This document shows, piece by piece, positions 4,386 through 54,902 of a DNA stretch of 64,000 nt. The notes under the pieces were generated by a model. It was given only the letters and a program-made list of their open reading frames with translations, was not told where the DNA came from and ran no database searches. The DNA comes from Thermaerobacter sp. FW80 (GTDB lineage: Bacteria > Bacillota > Sulfobacillia > Thermaerobacterales > Thermaerobacteraceae): positions 558,001 to 622,000 of the forward strand of contig NZ_CP037895.1 of assembly GCF_004634385.1 (NCBI RefSeq), given 5' to 3'. Numbering within the stretch: position 1 is the stretch's first letter; each line of letters starts with the position of its first letter. A program made the position numbers and the translations under genes.

Positions 4386-5552
4386 TCACGCCTCCCCCGC
4401 CGTACGGGCAGCCAGCTGGTCCAGGAACCAGCCCAGGATCAGGAGGACCGCGCCGGCCGCCACCAGGTGCAGGGCCTCGTCCCGAACAGCCGCCGGTGCC
4501 GCGCCGGCCATCAGCGCAAGATAGCCGTCCAGCATCCAACGGTTGGGCACCCACTGCGACACCCGCGCCAGGATGTCCGGGAAGATGAACAACGGCATCA
4601 TCGAGCCCCCCAAGAACCCCAGAACCTGGGCCAGGGCGGTGCTCACCCCCTCCTGGACCTCCGGCGATCGGGCGAAGGCCAGGAGCAGCGTGTTGACCCC
4701 CGCCGCCGCGAGGACGGAGGCCAGGGTGAGGAGCGCCCAGCCTCCCAGGTCTCCCCAGTGGACGCCGAAGAGGAGGCGCGTGGTGAGGGCCATCACCGTC
4801 ATGAAGACCAAGCCGACCGCCACGCTGCCGGCAAAGGTCCCGCCGAGGTAGGCCGCGCGGCCGGTGCCGGCCGCCCGCACCCGCAGGTAGACGCCGGTGG
4901 CCCGGTCCCGCAGGTAGCCCTGGGTGCCCTCGCGGGTGGCGAAGTACACCATCATCACCGCCATGCCGGCCGCGTAGTAGGCCATGGCGTCCACCGGTGG
5001 CGGCCCGGCGGAGCCTTCGCCACCGGCCGGTTCGTCCGGCAGGGGGGCGGGCCGGAGGGTCAGGTCCACGGGAACCGGCCCCGCAGGCTGGGCTCCGCCG
5101 GCCCCGGCGGTCGCTGCCGCGGCCGCCTCCCGGGCCAGCGACTCCACCAACGACGCCGGCACGGTGCCGGGCTCGGCCACCACCTGGAGCGGGTCTTCCG
5201 GGAAGTCCGGGGACATCACCACCGCCACCTCGACCACCCGCCGGCGCACCGCCGCGACGGCGGCGTCCGCGCCGGCGACCTCCTGCACCGTGATCCACCC
5301 GTCGGCCTCGGCCCCGGTCAAGACCCGTTGGAGGACGTCTGCAGCGGGGTGGGCAGGCGGGACGGCGACCGCCACCCGGTACGGCCGATCCGGGCGGAAG
5401 TCCGGCGCAAAGGCCTGCCGGAGGCTCACCCCCAGCACGAGGTTGAAGGCCAGGGGGATGAGGAACAGGATCAGGACGCCGCGCCAGTCGGCCGCGAAGC
5501 GCAGCAGCTGGTTCAGGGCAACGGCGCTCGCCTGCCGCAGCGAGTCGCGCAC
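4386..5552 (-). CDS. ABC-2 type permease, first subunit
   Basis: Membrane subunit of about 388 aa with the usual ABC-2 layout. One N-terminal helix (WRGVLILFLIPLAFNLVLGV) precedes a large extracytoplasmic domain (about 45-200), followed by five to six C-terminal helices. The GTG at 5552 lies eight bases after AGGAGG. The GTG at 5561 overlaps that ribosome site and is less likely. The periplasmic loop contains the segment PDEPAGG, encoded by a copy of the dispersed 13-mer at 5025-5037. It is the middle gene of the ATPase-permease-permease operon. Confidence 0.84.
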   Translation of the reverse strand: MRDSLRQASAVALNQLLRFAADWRGVLILFLIPLAFNLVLGVSLRQAFAPDFRPDRPYRVAVAVPPAHPAADVLQRVLTGAEADGWITVQEVAGADAAVAAVRRRVVEVAVVMSPDFPEDPLQVVAEPGTVPASLVESLAREAAAAATAGAGGAQPAGPVPVDLTLRPAPLPDEPAGGEGSAGPPPVDAMAYYAAGMAVMMVYFATREGTQGYLRDRATGVYLRVRAAGTGRAAYLGGTFAGSVAVGLVFMTVMALTTRLLFGVHWGDLGGWALLTLASVLAAAGVNTLLLAFARSPEVQEGVSTALAQVLGFLGGSMMPLFIFPDILARVSQWVPNRWMLDGYLALMAGAAPAAVRDEALHLVAAGAVLLILGWFLDQLAARTAGEA

Positions 5553-5564
5553 GAACGCCACCTC

Positions 5565-6530
<966 letters not shown>

Positions 6531-49044: not shown

Positions 49045-49875
49045 CTACCGCTGCGGCACCATGTCCCAGCGGCCGATGTCGCGGAAGCCGAGGCGCTTGT
49101 AGATGGCGCCGGCCTCCGGGTTGTCGTAGAACAGGCAGAGCCGCTTCCCCTCGGCCAGCACCTCGGAGCACAGCCGCACCATGAGCTGCGTGGCGAAGCC
49201 CCGGCGCCGGAAGCCGGGGTCGGTGGCCACACCCACGATCATGGCGGAAAACGGGTTCTCCGCCGCTGTCTTGACGGCGGCCACGGCGCGGCCGTCGTAT
49301 TCCAGCCAGTAGCCGCGGGCGGCCCCCGTCTCCAGCGAGTGCCGCAGCTCCCGCTTCCGCTGGTCGTCGAAGCTGTGAAACTCAACGATTCGACTGTACA
49401 GCGCGGCGATTACGGGTGCGTCGGCCGGTGTCATCCGGTGTGGGCGGACGTCGACAGGCAGATTCCCGCTCAGGGCGGCGAGCCGCCCGGCATCACTCAA
49501 CTCCGCGAAGTGAAGGGACCGCCTTCGTGACCAGTCCAGGACGGCCTGGGTGTACGGTCGCAGCCGGGCCACCACCTCGCCTTTTCCTGCGAGCTCGGCT
49601 CCGCCCCGGGCGGGCTCGGCGGCATGGCGGGCGATGATGCGGGCCAGACCCTCGGCGTCGAAGTCACCCCGCCCGTAAGGGATGAAGCTGCGAAAGTAGC
49701 GCAGCAACACGGCCCGGAGCCGGCCGCATTCATCAAAGTCTCCCCAGACGGCCTGGAAGTCGGTTTCGAAGCCGTAGTTCTGGATGTCCGCCAGGATGAA
49801 CAGGTTAAAGGCGCTCTCCTCGGCCAGGAAGTCGAACACCGGCTGGCGATCTGCTTCGTTCAGGCGGCGGATCAA
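49045..49875 (-). CDS. GNAT family acetyltransferase with N-terminal extension
   Basis: Protein of 276 aa. The N-terminal half starts LIRRLNEADRQPVFDFLAEE and NLFILADIQNYGF; the C-terminal GNAT domain (about 140-276) has VRPHRMTPADAPVIAAL, GVATDPGFRRRGFATQL (acetyl-CoA binding) and FYDNPEAGAIYKRLGFRDIG. The start is TTG after GGAGAGGAG. It lies 20 bases before the PPDK regulator on the same strand. A diverged, internally deleted copy of pieces of this gene occurs at 50737-50840. Confidence 0.85.
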   Translation of the reverse strand: MIRRLNEADRQPVFDFLAEESAFNLFILADIQNYGFETDFQAVWGDFDECGRLRAVLLRYFRSFIPYGRGDFDAEGLARIIARHAAEPARGGAELAGKGEVVARLRPYTQAVLDWSRRRSLHFAELSDAGRLAALSGNLPVDVRPHRMTPADAPVIAALYSRIVEFHSFDDQRKRELRHSLETGAARGYWLEYDGRAVAAVKTAAENPFSAMIVGVATDPGFRRRGFATQLMVRLCSEVLAEGKRLCLFYDNPEAGAIYKRLGFRDIGRWDMVPQR

Positions 49876-50322
49876 GGTTCCCGGCTCCTCTCCCGGCGGA
49901 CCCCTCGTTGTGGATGATTCGAACTGCCGCCGCTGCGATCGTCCCCGATAAACACGCGCCTGCAATGGCGCCGTTCGCCGGGTGCAATGGGGCTCCTTGG
50001 AAACTTTTCGACATGGAAGGCGAAACCCCTGGCCGTGTCCCCTGACGACCCGTAGCCGGGCTACCCGGGCCGCGGTCTGCGAGCAGGAATGGCGTCAGGA
50101 AGTCCTGGACGGCCGGCGCCGGCGGGAAGTCACTTAGTGCCCCGCAATGCCAGGGCAGGTAACCTGTTTACGATCCACTTCATCCGGGACGAACAACGCG
50201 TAAGCCGGATCGCCCCATCCTTAAACACCGGCTGCAATCCGAATCAGGTAGGTAGGCCTGGACCGCTAGGTAGGCCTGGCCCGCCCGGGACCAAGGACGG
50301 TGGGTAGCCCTTGAGGCGGATG
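49876..50322. other. gap between the GNAT gene and the glyS-fragment terminator
   Basis: No gene is supported. At 50249-50261 and 50267-50279 the 13-mer TAGGTAGGCCTGG is directly repeated with a five-base spacer. The part from about 50150 to 50260 is less G+C-rich than its surroundings and may be a leftover of foreign DNA. Confidence 0.45.
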
Positions 50323-50357
50323 GCAAGAGGGGCCGGGATAAGCCCGGCCCCTCTTGC
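50323..50357. terminator. 15-base-pair terminator hairpin
   Basis: GCAAGAGGGGCCGGG and CCCGGCCCCTCTTGC form a perfect stem around ATAAG. It lies exactly at the stop codon of the glyS fragment (minus strand), so it is probably the original terminator of the glyS transcript. No T-run is present. Confidence 0.7.
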
Positions 50358-50736
50358 TACACGTTGCTGTTCAGCTCACCGAGGGCAGCTACCTGGCCTG
50401 CCAGGTCCGCCACACCCTTGAGCAGAGCGAGGCGGTTGGCCCGCAGGGCCGGTTCCTCCGCCATGACCAGCACCCGGTCCAGGAACGCGTCGACAGCGGG
50501 ACGCAGGCGGGCGACGGCCTGGAAATAGGCCGTGTAGTCCCCGGCGGCCAGCGCCCGCCCGGCGGCCTCGGCCGCGGACTGCAGCGCCGCGTGGAGCTCG
50601 CCCTCCTCGGGTTCCCGGAACAGGGCCGGATCGATGCGACCACCTTCGGCCCGTCCGGCCAGGTTGGCCGCCCGCCTGTGGACGGTGAGGACGTCGGCTG
50701 CCAGCGGCGACGCCAGTAAGTTCGCCACCGCCCGGT
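50357..50736 (-). pseudogene. duplicated 3' fragment of glyS
   Basis: The last about 120 codons of glyS are repeated here with roughly 94% nucleotide identity to 52304-52672 (about 22 differences counted by eye over some 360 bases). The fragment keeps an open frame (NLLASPLAADVL to AALGELNSNV) and ends at a terminator hairpin, but has no 5' part and no start. Sequence identity stops sharply at 50736, where the frame passes into acetyltransferase-like sequence. Confidence 0.9.
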
Positions 50737-50840
50737 CCTAGTCCATAGCGCCGCAATTACAGGCGCATCTGCTGGTGGCCTCATGTTTACGCGGACGTCC
50801 CGAGGCAGATGCCGGTGGTCTGCTTCATTCAGGCAGTGCA
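50737..50840 (-). pseudogene. rearranged remnant of a GNAT gene
   Basis: Translating the minus strand gives CLNEADHRHLPRDVRV followed by PPADAPVIAALWTR, which matches two separate parts of the acetyltransferase at 49045-49875 (its N-terminus and residues about 145-165) with everything between deleted. It is less similar to that gene (about 75% by eye) than the glyS copy is to glyS, so it probably came from a related strain. It lies directly between the methyltransferase stop and the glyS fragment. Confidence 0.7.
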
Positions 50841-51632
50841 TCAATACCGTACCCACGAATCCTTCCCCTCTCTGTCTTTGCAACCTCTACGGTCCCGGAC
50901 AAGCGGAAGCGCAATCTGTTGCCGCTCATCACCCGATCTACGGGTATACGCCGGGTAATCAGGGGGCTGGTAGCGACCTAGCTCATCTCCGAATTGATAC
51001 CACCCTGGACGCTCTGTACGAGCAAATAACTCCAAATACGGGCCAGGGCTACAGGCTTCAATGATGTCGTATAATTCATCGGGCTTACGTGAATGTTCAC
51101 GCTTACGAGCCACAATAATGTTTTCTTGGCGTCGCCCTGGCTTGAACGTACGAAGCCCACCCCGAACCCCAAAGAGTACCATTTCTGTCACGTTGCGAAA
51201 GTAAAATCCAACACCACGGCGGTCGGGGCCACCATCCTTTCTGACTTTGTACCAGATAATATTTGTCTTATAGGTAAACCCCCACCGTCGCATAACCTCA
51301 AGCCCTTCTGCTAGCAAAGCGTTTGGTACCCAAAGATAAAGATGACTTTGAGGTAGAGCTAACTGTGCTATAGGAAGCTCCAATATCTCTTGCAGGTCCA
51401 TTGTATGATAGCGGGATAAGCGGCGGTGTTCAGGCGCCACCTTGCCCGTCCGATTCGAAAATCGCCACGGAGGATCAGCCAATATGGTTCCAAACTTCTG
51501 ACCACCAAATCGTTCTAAGAGTTCTTCACCAACAGACTTCAAGGGCCGGTTTTCTAGGAAGAACTCATGGGCAGGTCTTATCGATTGTCTATAAACCGGC
51601 TCTTGCGAATCCCGATTACGAGGATCGGACAT
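50841..51632 (-). CDS. MT-A70 family DNA N6-adenine methyltransferase
   Basis: Methylase of 263 aa. The catalytic motif DPPW is in GTILADPPWRFSNR near residue 50, and LYLWVPNALLAEGLEVMRRWGF and the end CSPGPYLELFARTERPGW (S-adenosylmethionine pocket) fit the MT-A70 family. It is expected to put a methyl group on adenine to protect sites of the adjacent nuclease. The ATG follows GGGGGAGGTGG. It overlaps the 3' end of the nuclease gene by 55 bases. Base composition is visibly AT-richer than the flanks. Confidence 0.9.
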   Translation of the reverse strand: MSDPRNRDSQEPVYRQSIRPAHEFFLENRPLKSVGEELLERFGGQKFGTILADPPWRFSNRTGKVAPEHRRLSRYHTMDLQEILELPIAQLALPQSHLYLWVPNALLAEGLEVMRRWGFTYKTNIIWYKVRKDGGPDRRGVGFYFRNVTEMVLFGVRGGLRTFKPGRRQENIIVARKREHSRKPDELYDIIEACSPGPYLELFARTERPGWYQFGDELGRYQPPDYPAYTRRSGDERQQIALPLVRDRRGCKDREGKDSWVRY

Positions 51633-52171
51633 CCCCCGCCACCTCCCCCATTAAGACGTGGCAGTAATTTTCTCATCCACGTAGTAGACCATCCATACTT
51701 ATCCCAGACGTCGAGTTCTCTAAATATCTCTGCTAGTTCGTCTGATTTTGTGATAATTATGCCGACATCGATTGCCCTTAAGTCGAACAGCAACCTGAAG
51801 TTATTAAGGTCTCGATCAAAGAACGGATCCTTGTTGGACCATTCAACCTCTACAGCGACGCGATTCTTGTAAAAGTCCACTTTATGAGTGGGTGCTTCGT
51901 ATACCTTGCCATCCACCATTATCTGTACATCGAAGGACTTCTCCTTCCAGCCACGAGCACCGAATCCCTCATCGAGTCGCCTAGCCATTTTTGACTTGCT
52001 GCCGCCACCCTCTAAGACTTCTTTCGCTGTGAAATGGAATTCCCTCAGCACTTCAAGGAGATCGTTCCACTCCGTTTCATGAGCTCCTCGAAGTACGGCC
52101 AGAGCATTTCGCCATTCATGGATCTCATAGTCCTGACGAATGTCATCAGGTACGAGATGCAGGCTCAACAC
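51578..52171 (-). CDS. BglII/BstYI-family type II restriction endonuclease
   Basis: Predicted nuclease of about 197 aa. Motifs typical of the BglII/BstYI family are FHFTAKEVLEGGGSKSKMARRL, the catalytic segment KVDFYKNRVAVEVEWSNKDPFFDRDLNNFRLL (an E.E/D pattern with nearby acidic residues) and IDVGIIITKSDEL. By family the target would be of the RGATCY type, which is inference. The GTG at 52171 follows GAGGGG; upstream ATG starts are weaker. AT-rich composition and unlike codon use show it was acquired. Confidence 0.85.
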   Translation of the reverse strand: MLSLHLVPDDIRQDYEIHEWRNALAVLRGAHETEWNDLLEVLREFHFTAKEVLEGGGSKSKMARRLDEGFGARGWKEKSFDVQIMVDGKVYEAPTHKVDFYKNRVAVEVEWSNKDPFFDRDLNNFRLLFDLRAIDVGIIITKSDELAEIFRELDVWDKYGWSTTWMRKLLPRLNGGGGGGCPILVIGIRKSRFIDNR

Positions 52172-52290
52172 AAAAGACCCCTCGCGAACAGACTTTCTGT
52201 AAATATTTTTCGCGCAGGTTCCACCTCTTCCTGCACGACCACCCACGGGTCGAGACGGACAGCCAGGTTCCGTCACAGGCTTCCCGAAAG

Positions 52291-54636
52291 CTAAGAACGG
52301 GTCACCGCCAGCTCCCCGAGAGCGGCTACCCGGCCTGCCAGGTCCGCCACACCCTTGAGCAGAGCGAGGCGGTTGGCCCGCAGGGCCGGTTCCTCCGCCA
52401 TGACCAGCACCCGGTCCAGGAACGCGTCCACCGCTGGACGCAGGCGGGCGACGGCCTGGAAATAGGCCGTGTAGTCGCCGGCGTCCAGCGCCCGCCCGGC
52501 GGCCTCGGCCGCGGACTGCAACGCCGCGTGCAGCTCGCCCTCCTCGGGTTCCCGGAACAGGGCCGGATCGATGGGACCACCTTCGGCCCGCCCGGCCAGG
52601 TTGGCCGCCCGCCGGTGTACGGTCAGCACGTCGGCGGCCAGGGGCGACGCCAGGAGCTCCGTCACCGCCCGGGCCCGCGCCCAGACGCCGGCCACGTCGG
52701 TGCGGTCCACCGCCAGCACCGCTTGGATCACGTCATGGGCATAGCCCGCCTCGGCGAGCAAGACCCGCAGCCGCGCCGCCAGGAAGTCCAGCAACCGGTC
52801 CCGGACCGCCGCCGGGTCGAACCGGACCTCCACCGTGGGCGGCGCCACGGGCGGCCGGTAACCGGCCAGGGCCTCGTCCAGCACGGCGTCCAGCGCCGGC
52901 ATGGCGGCCCCCGGCGGCAAGACGAGCCCTCGCCCCACCCCCATGGCAGCGGTGCGGTCCGGGCCACCGCGACCGGTCCCTGGGACGCCGCGAGACGCCA
53001 CCGGTTCGTCGCGCGACGGGGCGTGCCGCACCGGATCCGACCCGGGCGCGGGGTCGCCGGCCGGCGCCTGCCCGCCCGCCGGGTCCACGGCCTGCGCGCC
53101 GCCCTGCTGCGGGGCATCCGCGCCCCGGGCGGCGTCTCCGGCCAGCAGCCGGAGCAGGCCGACGGCCGCCCGGCGCAGGCCGTAGGGGTCCTGGGAGCCC
53201 GTGGGCTCGAGGCCCGCGGCGAAGCAGCCGGCCAGGGTGTCCGCCCGGTCGGCGATGGCCAGCAACAGGCCCGGCCAGGTGGACGGCAGCTCGTCGTCGT
53301 CCCCGCCCCGCGGCAGGTACTGCTCGGCCAGGGCCTCGGCCACCGCCGGCGGCTCGCCGTCGCGGAGCGCGTACTCCCGGCCCATCCGGCCCGCCAGCTC
53401 GGGGAACTCGTAGACCATGGCGGTGACCAGGTCGGCCTTGGCCAGCCGGGCCGCCCGGACGGCGTGCTCGCGCTCCGCCGCCGGCAGGCCGAGCCGCTCC
53501 GCCAGCCAGGCGACCAGCCGCTCAAGGCGCCGCGTCTTGTCGAGCAGGGTGCCGAGGTCGGGCAGGAAGGAGACCCGCTCCAGGTCGGGCACCCGATCCG
53601 CCAGGCGCCGCCGCAGGTCCTGCTGGAAGAAGAACCGGGCGTCGGCCAGGCGGGCGCCGATCACCCGCTCGTTGCCCCGCCGGACGGTGTCCAGGTGCCG
53701 CTCGTCCCCGTTGCGGACGGCGACGAAGTGGGGCAGCAGCCGGCTCTCGCCAGGCCGGCGCACGGGGAAGTAGCGCTGGTGGACCTTCATGGTGGTCACC
53801 AGCACGTCCCGCGGCAGCTCCAGCATCCCCTCGGCGAAGGATCCGACGAAGGCCGTCGGGTACTCCACCAGGTCGACCACCTCGGCCAGGAGCTCCGGGT
53901 CGACCTCCACCTCGCCGCCCACGGCCGCGGCCGCCGCCCGGGCCTGCTCGACGATGCGCTCCCGACGCTCCTCCGGGTCGACCACCACGTAGGCGTCGGC
54001 CAGGCGGCGCCGGTACTCCTCCTCCGAGGCCGAGGCCAGCTCCACCGGCCCGGGGTGGAGGAAGCGGTGCCCGTAGCTCACCCGGCCCGCCTGCACCCCG
54101 GCGAAGGCGAAGGGCAGGACCTCCTCGCCCAGCAGGGCCACGAGCCAGTGGACCGGCCGGACGAACCGGTGCTCCCCCGCCCCCCAGCGCATGGTGCGGC
54201 GGAACTCCAGGCCGCCGAGGATGCCGGGCAGCGTCTCCGCCAGCACCGCCGCCGCGGGCCGCCCCTCCTCCACCTTGCGCGCGAACACGTACTCGCCCTG
54301 CGGCGTCTCCCGGACGACCAGGTCGTCGACCGCCACGCCCTGGGCCCGGGCGAAGCCCAGGGCGGCGCGGGTGGGCTGCCCATCGGGTCCGTAGGCGACG
54401 GCCCGCGCCGGGCCCCGGACCCACGACTCCCGCGACGCCTGGCGCGCGGCCAGCCCCTTGACCACCAGGGTCAGCCGGCGCGGCGTGCCCAGCGCCCGCA
54501 CCAGCTCGTAGGGCAGGCCGGCCTCCGCCAGCACGGTGCCCGCCCGCTCCGCCAGCTGGCGGCGGGCCTCGGCGCAGTCGGCCGCCGGGATCTCCTCGCA
54601 ACCGACCTCCACCAGCAGATCCAGCCGCTCCTCCAT
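52291..54636 (-). CDS. glyS: glycyl-tRNA synthetase beta subunit
   Basis: Beta chain of the tetrameric enzyme, 781 aa. It starts MEERLDLLVEVGCEEIPA and has the conserved EHRFVRPVHWLVAL, TMKVHQRYFPV and GNERVIGARLADARFF segments, with the C-terminal anticodon-binding part at about 610-770. A non-conserved insert of about 80 residues (Pro/Gly/Ala-rich, with SRDEPVASRG) interrupts the region before LDAVLDEALAGY. The ATG follows GGAAGGAG. Its last codons differ from the duplicated fragment: AALGELAVTRS here, AALGELNSNV there. Confidence 0.95.
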   Translation of the reverse strand: MEERLDLLVEVGCEEIPAADCAEARRQLAERAGTVLAEAGLPYELVRALGTPRRLTLVVKGLAARQASRESWVRGPARAVAYGPDGQPTRAALGFARAQGVAVDDLVVRETPQGEYVFARKVEEGRPAAAVLAETLPGILGGLEFRRTMRWGAGEHRFVRPVHWLVALLGEEVLPFAFAGVQAGRVSYGHRFLHPGPVELASASEEEYRRRLADAYVVVDPEERRERIVEQARAAAAAVGGEVEVDPELLAEVVDLVEYPTAFVGSFAEGMLELPRDVLVTTMKVHQRYFPVRRPGESRLLPHFVAVRNGDERHLDTVRRGNERVIGARLADARFFFQQDLRRRLADRVPDLERVSFLPDLGTLLDKTRRLERLVAWLAERLGLPAAEREHAVRAARLAKADLVTAMVYEFPELAGRMGREYALRDGEPPAVAEALAEQYLPRGGDDDELPSTWPGLLLAIADRADTLAGCFAAGLEPTGSQDPYGLRRAAVGLLRLLAGDAARGADAPQQGGAQAVDPAGGQAPAGDPAPGSDPVRHAPSRDEPVASRGVPGTGRGGPDRTAAMGVGRGLVLPPGAAMPALDAVLDEALAGYRPPVAPPTVEVRFDPAAVRDRLLDFLAARLRVLLAEAGYAHDVIQAVLAVDRTDVAGVWARARAVTELLASPLAADVLTVHRRAANLAGRAEGGPIDPALFREPEEGELHAALQSAAEAAGRALDAGDYTAYFQAVARLRPAVDAFLDRVLVMAEEPALRANRLALLKGVADLAGRVAALGELAVTRS
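52304..52672. repeat. glyS 3' end: direct repeat copy inside the intact gene
   Basis: This is the copy that belongs to the complete glyS gene. It matches 50380-50736 in the same orientation, with about 94% identity counted by eye. The differences are mostly synonymous or conservative, so both copies were translated until recently or diverged in separate lineages. Confidence 0.85.
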
Positions 54637-54902
54637 GGCTTCCGCTCCTTCCCGGGATGGGGCGAGACCCGCGGCCCGCCCCGGCGCCGTCGGGCCGGGG
54701 CCGCCCGGCCCCGGGACCCCATCCCCTCCGATCCCGTCCCTCCCGTCCCGATCCCGTCGGGGCGCGGAGGCGCCCATCGGGAGGGCCGTCGGCCGCATCC
54801 CGCCCGGTGGCCCGGGGCCGCTCGGCCGGGCCCACCGTGGGTGGGCCGCCCGATCGTCGTCCCACCCCGGCCGCGGGGTGGGACGCCGGCCGGCCGCGCG
54901 GG
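54637..54902. other. 266-base spacer between glyQ and glyS
   Basis: In most genomes glyQ and glyS are adjacent. Here the spacer holds no supported gene, only G+C-rich sequence with GGGCCCGGC-type runs. Co-transcription from the T-box is still likely. Confidence 0.4.

Follow-up and report, generated by a model that had tools for sequence, protein, structure and literature searches.

The island described here lies on the minus strand of the window (the whole stretch of DNA analysed, 64 kb). It consists of a restriction-modification (R-M) gene pair bracketed by two copies of the end of glyS, with the following features:

52291..54640, minus strand: glyS, glycyl-tRNA synthetase beta, complete (upstream end approximate)
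52309-52675, minus strand: inner repeat copy, the last part of glyS (repeat alignment)
51578..52171, minus strand: BglII-family endonuclease gene (Pfam PF09195, 3.4e-45)
50841..51632, minus strand: MT-A70 (adenine) DNA methyltransferase gene (Pfam PF05063, 1.9e-32; PADLOC MTase_II, 5.5e-87)
50740..50860, minus strand: GNAT gene remnant with an internal deletion, from the methylase end to the outer glyS copy (homologous to 49045-49965)
50357..50738, minus strand: outer copy of the glyS 3′ end, with its own stop codon (repeat alignment)
50319..50353, minus strand: strong hairpin directly behind the outer-copy stop, a probable transcription terminator (folding)
49045..49965, minus strand: intact GNAT acetyltransferase gene (the glyS downstream neighbour in the same-family genome G004)

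Read along the minus strand, complete glyS is thus followed by the endonuclease, the methylase, the GNAT remnant, the outer glyS end with its hairpin, the intact GNAT gene and, 3′ of the latter, psrp, a kinase/pyrophosphorylase gene. An earlier note on this DNA had described a low-GC block between a complete glyS and a second, direct copy of its 3′ end, about 94% identical. Base-by-base alignment bears this out: the copies (50372-50738 and 52309-52675) align over 367 nt, ungapped, at 93.2% identity (E 1e-141), and the R-M block has a GC content of 47-55%, against 70-80% in its surroundings and about 73% for the host. glyS itself, said to have been left intact, does read through complete. No other direct repeat in the window, at a spacing of 0.3-10 kb, reaches both 80 bp and 80% identity, and the R-M block occurs once in its own genome. 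As also claimed, neither a transposase-like ORF nor a bracketing inverted repeat is seen near the island edges, among the window ORFs or in the repeat comparison. The proposed position of the terminator in the outer copy holds as well: the outer-copy stop codon is at its natural place, and the hairpin behind it has a perfect 15-bp stem (-34.9 kcal/mol, z -6.8); it is missed by a simple terminator scan because it has no T run. The terminal codons of glyS in the inner copy (AVTRS) are unlike those of the outer copy, and unlike those of relatives.

The earlier identification of the two island genes was likewise correct. The endonuclease scores 154 bits against PF09195 (cut-off 26), and relatives on plasmids bear the annotation BglII/BstYI family. 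Its longest ORF begins at 52276, but alignment of relatives places the start probably at a GTG or TTG near 52171. The methylase and endonuclease genes overlap by 55 nt, and the same endonuclease-methylase order is found in 75 of the best 80 relatives. With both the family profile and an adjacent methyltransferase, the pair is, as judged from its sequence, a BglII-family type II R-M system, which may cleave and protect an AGATCT or RGATCY site. An E-x-E motif is invariant in 18 aligned members of the endonuclease family, at a position where BglII and BstYI have E-x-Q. No solved structure in the PDB matches the endonuclease by sequence, nor does any NCBIfam family. Endonuclease relatives are also found on 31 viral contigs (L113-L143), mostly with another methylase arrangement.

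Close relatives offer empty sites for comparison. All four examined (G001-G004; three of the same genus and one of the same family) have a single glyS 3′ end and lack the R-M genes, and the methylase is unique to this genome among the five family genomes compared. No relative with an empty site carries two glyS 3′ ends, and the block is not fixed in relatives. The earlier note had predicted that the empty site would have one copy with the terminator just behind glyS; the single copy is there in all four, while the hairpin is clear by eye in G002 and less so in the others. In G004 the glyS-psrp interval contains an intact GNAT gene, and in G002 a short remnant of one; it is empty in G001 and G003, and here holds both the R-M pair and GNAT. 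Since these contents differ between relatives, the interval is a variable spot in the family, with GNAT its probable ancestral content. In close relatives (L022, L023, L024, L025) the GNAT gene of this interval (49045-49965 here) is intact, decayed or absent.

The layout and the empty sites both fit the explanation given in the earlier note, a true long target duplication, in which the R-M unit would have entered glyS with copying of about 370 bp of host target, and the two copies would then have drifted apart. The same pattern has been reported for Helicobacter R-M systems. Two further observations, on the insert and on the repeat, are difficult to accommodate.

The first is a feature which was overlooked before. 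The stretch of about 110 nt between the methylase and the outer glyS copy is a decayed, internally deleted piece of a GNAT gene. It matches two parts of the intact gene, collinear and similarly oriented (67 nt at 73% and 34 nt at 79% identity), with the middle missing. This match reaches 50.4 bits, while none of 132 other segments of the window exceeds 23.7, and searching the genome for GNAT at the protein level finds the intact gene and the remnant, and nothing else. A piece of the next gene would be unexpected in the insert if the cassette had merely copied its target, and therefore points to DNA from a homologous locus. Target duplication leaves it unexplained. The resulting order, glyS end - GNAT remnant - glyS end - GNAT, is also what would be left by a tandem duplication of the host segment from the glyS end to the GNAT start, followed by R-M insertion into the first copy's spacer, after which the duplicated GNAT piece would have decayed while gene conversion held the glyS copies alike. 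This requires two events and gene conversion besides, and gives no account of why this R-M family is laid out alike at unrelated genes, with a synonymous excess there too (see below). We regard it as quite improbable.

The second observation concerns how the two glyS ends differ. Of 25 mismatches over the 367 nt, 16 are at codon position 3; 17 are synonymous and 8 nonsynonymous, where about 30% synonymous would be expected without selection (P 8.5e-5). If one copy had been live and the other dead, the expected synonymous share would be 43-46% (P 0.01-0.02 for the window alone), and because of this the test on the window by itself is suggestive. The copy that target duplication supposes to be dead has neither an indel nor a stop in the copy alignment. 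By these comparisons the two glyS ends probably are separately evolving functional alleles, and not the recipient's copy of itself. With the synonymous excess, the GNAT remnant and the undamaged outer copy against it, a true target duplication seems unlikely here; what stands of the earlier interpretation is the arrangement of repeats and empty sites, while the origin of the second end as a self-copy probably does not.

An import of the island from a related genome by RecA-type homologous recombination, anchored in the end of the host gene, is the reading we favor, at a probability of roughly 0.6. It draws on the layout, the empty sites, the GNAT remnant, the synonymous bias, and the recurrence described below, and is better than target copying because import of a donor allele explains both the synonymous bias and the remnant. 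The incoming DNA would have carried a donor glyS end, the endonuclease, the methylase and the GNAT remnant, and would have recombined with the recipient glyS. Its other end could have been joined inside the 3′ part of the recipient glyS by an illegitimate join (homology-facilitated illegitimate recombination); alternatively, a circle or a repeat-flanked unit already carrying a glyS end might have entered by a single crossover. The product here is identical whether linear DNA was joined illegitimately or a circle entered by one crossover. The result would be an intact glyS with a 3′ end at least partly donor-derived and the R-M pair behind it, the recipient's own glyS end being displaced outside with its hairpin and the downstream genes. 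We infer, in this sequence of steps, a donor, a direction of transfer, the involvement of RecA and a linear or circular form for the donor DNA. A donor genome with the order glyS-R-M-GNAT was not found among the genomes and loci compared. ComEC is present in the genome, which is weak support for transformation because ComEC is widespread.

The distribution of differences within the repeat may hold a trace of the crossover. Among 12 decided differences in the first 105 nt, relatives side with the inner copy 10:2; in the next 235 nt they side with the outer copy 6:0. This is a pattern that a crossover inside the repeat would leave, and may be taken as a hint (longest-run permutation P 0.015, with breakpoints picked after the data had been seen). 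Divergence is uneven, with 12 of the 25 mismatches within the first 62 nt, and a single simple donor/recipient boundary does not account for all of it, so later gene conversion must be assumed. Also counting against import, divergence is greater in the GNAT remnant (73-79% identity) than over most of the glyS end.

Similar arrangements recur around other members of the endonuclease family. An endonuclease scan of genome contigs was used, from which the best 80 relatives were taken; direct repeats were counted as bracketing from 50 bp and 80% identity upward, and brackets of equal length placed elsewhere in the same loci served as control. Bracketing repeats were found in 7 of the 76 testable loci, as against 2 of 234 control brackets (Fisher P 0.001), one of these two being another copy of a repeat that had been counted before. 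The repeats are copies of the topB 3′ end (L062, 170 bp), the 3′ end of an HD-domain gene (L049, 99 bp), the 3′ end of an asparaginase-like gene (L094, 132 bp), a gene start region (L079, 281 bp), and a mostly noncoding sequence (L096, 99 bp); in the other two loci, L054 and L080, they lie at contig ends. These last two are possibly assembly artefacts, since the second copy is at a contig end; leaving them out gives 5/76 against 2/234 (P 0.011). Forty genomes sampled from the family to which the L062 genome belongs matched topB without the R-M genes. The layout is shared, at unrelated gene ends, by close R-M relatives from other phyla.

Two further loci resemble these. In L026, whose R-M pair is the nearest to this one among those found in the class, a 73-bp copy of a tRNA-Ser 3′ end plus terminator lies beyond the R-M pair (the two copies, at 117-189 and 1898-1970, flank it). 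In L083 a 323-bp mutS end (88.5% identity) is found directly before the R-M genes, with full mutS further upstream, and is not a bracket; the copies of the mutS 3′ end are at 2603-2925 and 4428-4750. L094 has four copies of the end of one asparaginase-like gene within 6 kb (1-144, 1148-1279, 2639-2770 and 5683-5796), with a CopG-type antitoxin gene between the first and second and the R-M genes between the second and third, apparently from serial insertions at one gene end.

Not every sample showed the pattern. Sampling the endonuclease family a second time, in another phylum, yielded 9 new short loci, none of them bracketed by a repeat; bracketing repeats were found in 0 of 31 viral loci, and in 0 of 10 short loci of a PstI-type R-M control, a sample too small for a conclusion. 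A wider test, for sequence beside the R-M genes recurring anywhere in the locus, gave 8/78 and 10/73 against 24/237 in the control, with no separation, because ordinary paralogues dominate it; the bracketing test alone separates.

Where the repeats are coding, the bias seen in glyS reappears. Synonymous and nonsynonymous differences are 17/8 for glyS, 25/12 for mutS, 9.5/7.5 for topB, 7/0 for the asparaginase-like gene and 3/0 for the HD gene, or 61.5 against 27.5 for the five cases pooled. A duplication within the same genome, leaving one dead and one live copy, is predicted to give at most 41% synonymous, and the pooled P is 1e-7 or lower across a range of selection strengths. This calculation uses an assumed, not computed, synonymous fraction of 0.25 for mutS, and assumes independent cases and mutation unbiased over base changes; the five cases come from four genomes, L083 and L094 being contigs of one metagenome-assembled genome.

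The position at gene 3′ ends invites comparison with site-specific elements. Phage-like elements at icd carry their own copy of the gene end and enter by integrase-type insertion. A cassette with its own gene-end copy, integrated at gene 3′ ends by an integrase supplied in trans, would similarly restore the gene and leave the native end outside, and a tRNA-Ser 3′ end is among the targets here. But the start of the outer copy holds no identical core (12 mismatches in the first 62 nt), no integrase-like gene is found among the ORFs adjoining the island, repeat lengths range from 73 to 367 bp at varying targets, and L079 duplicates a gene start rather than an end. Chiefly because of the missing core and the lack of an integrase gene beside the island, integration of this kind appears very unlikely.

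Homologous import might be carried one step further. Repeat-bounded R-M cassettes could be self-perpetuating mobile units needing no enzyme of their own: a circle set free by recombination between the repeats, with the R-M pair and one gene end, would re-enter related genomes at the same gene by a single crossover, keeping the gene intact every time. This is speculative, and we would not expect it to hold, though it deserves some consideration; if it did, "long target duplication" would be what allele-carrying circles leave behind.

It has long been asked how R-M systems that lack transposases spread to new genomes, and the mechanism of long target duplication is, as far as the literature searched shows, unsettled. 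The test by codon position distinguishes ends copied from the recipient from ends imported as alleles, and could be applied to published cases. In a limited search of the open-access literature, outside which the original Helicobacter paper lies, no earlier use of it on such repeats was seen. In the five coding cases, drawn from four genomes, it favors import; ordinary homologous recombination at gene ends would then be the vehicle.

Several categories of known systems have properties in common with this island. With the BglII/BstYI-family R-M systems its endonuclease shares a Pfam family, differing in the conserved E-x-E where BglII and BstYI themselves have E-x-Q. R-M insertion with long target duplication (Nobusato et al., 2000), to judge from the passages citing it in PMC1643837, PMC3874152 and PMC4978471, shares R-M genes between long direct host repeats (~100 bp and more), no transposase, and an empty site in relatives; here, however, the copies are like diverged alleles and the insert holds a remnant of the neighboring gene, pointing to import. 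In the minimal mobile element (Saunders and Snyder, 2002), as far as the citing passage in PMC3898611 describes it, a cassette lies between two conserved genes, homologous recombination in the flanks being the sole mobility proposed. The interval between glyS and psrp agrees with this in its varied contents among relatives and its lack of mobility genes, and exchange of the island by homologous recombination can be inferred; but a minimal mobile element is described as a swap between flanks, while this island has one flank end twice. Homology-facilitated illegitimate recombination (PMC3240628), which has been put forward for effector arrays of Vibrio (PMC5361080), shares one homologous anchor, one illegitimate join, and old 3′ parts left downstream; the case proposed here is that of an R-M pair lying behind genes that are essential or housekeeping, with the illegitimate join indistinguishable from that of a circle. 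The last three of these categories have thus been described before, and the allelic evidence is what this locus and its relatives add to them.
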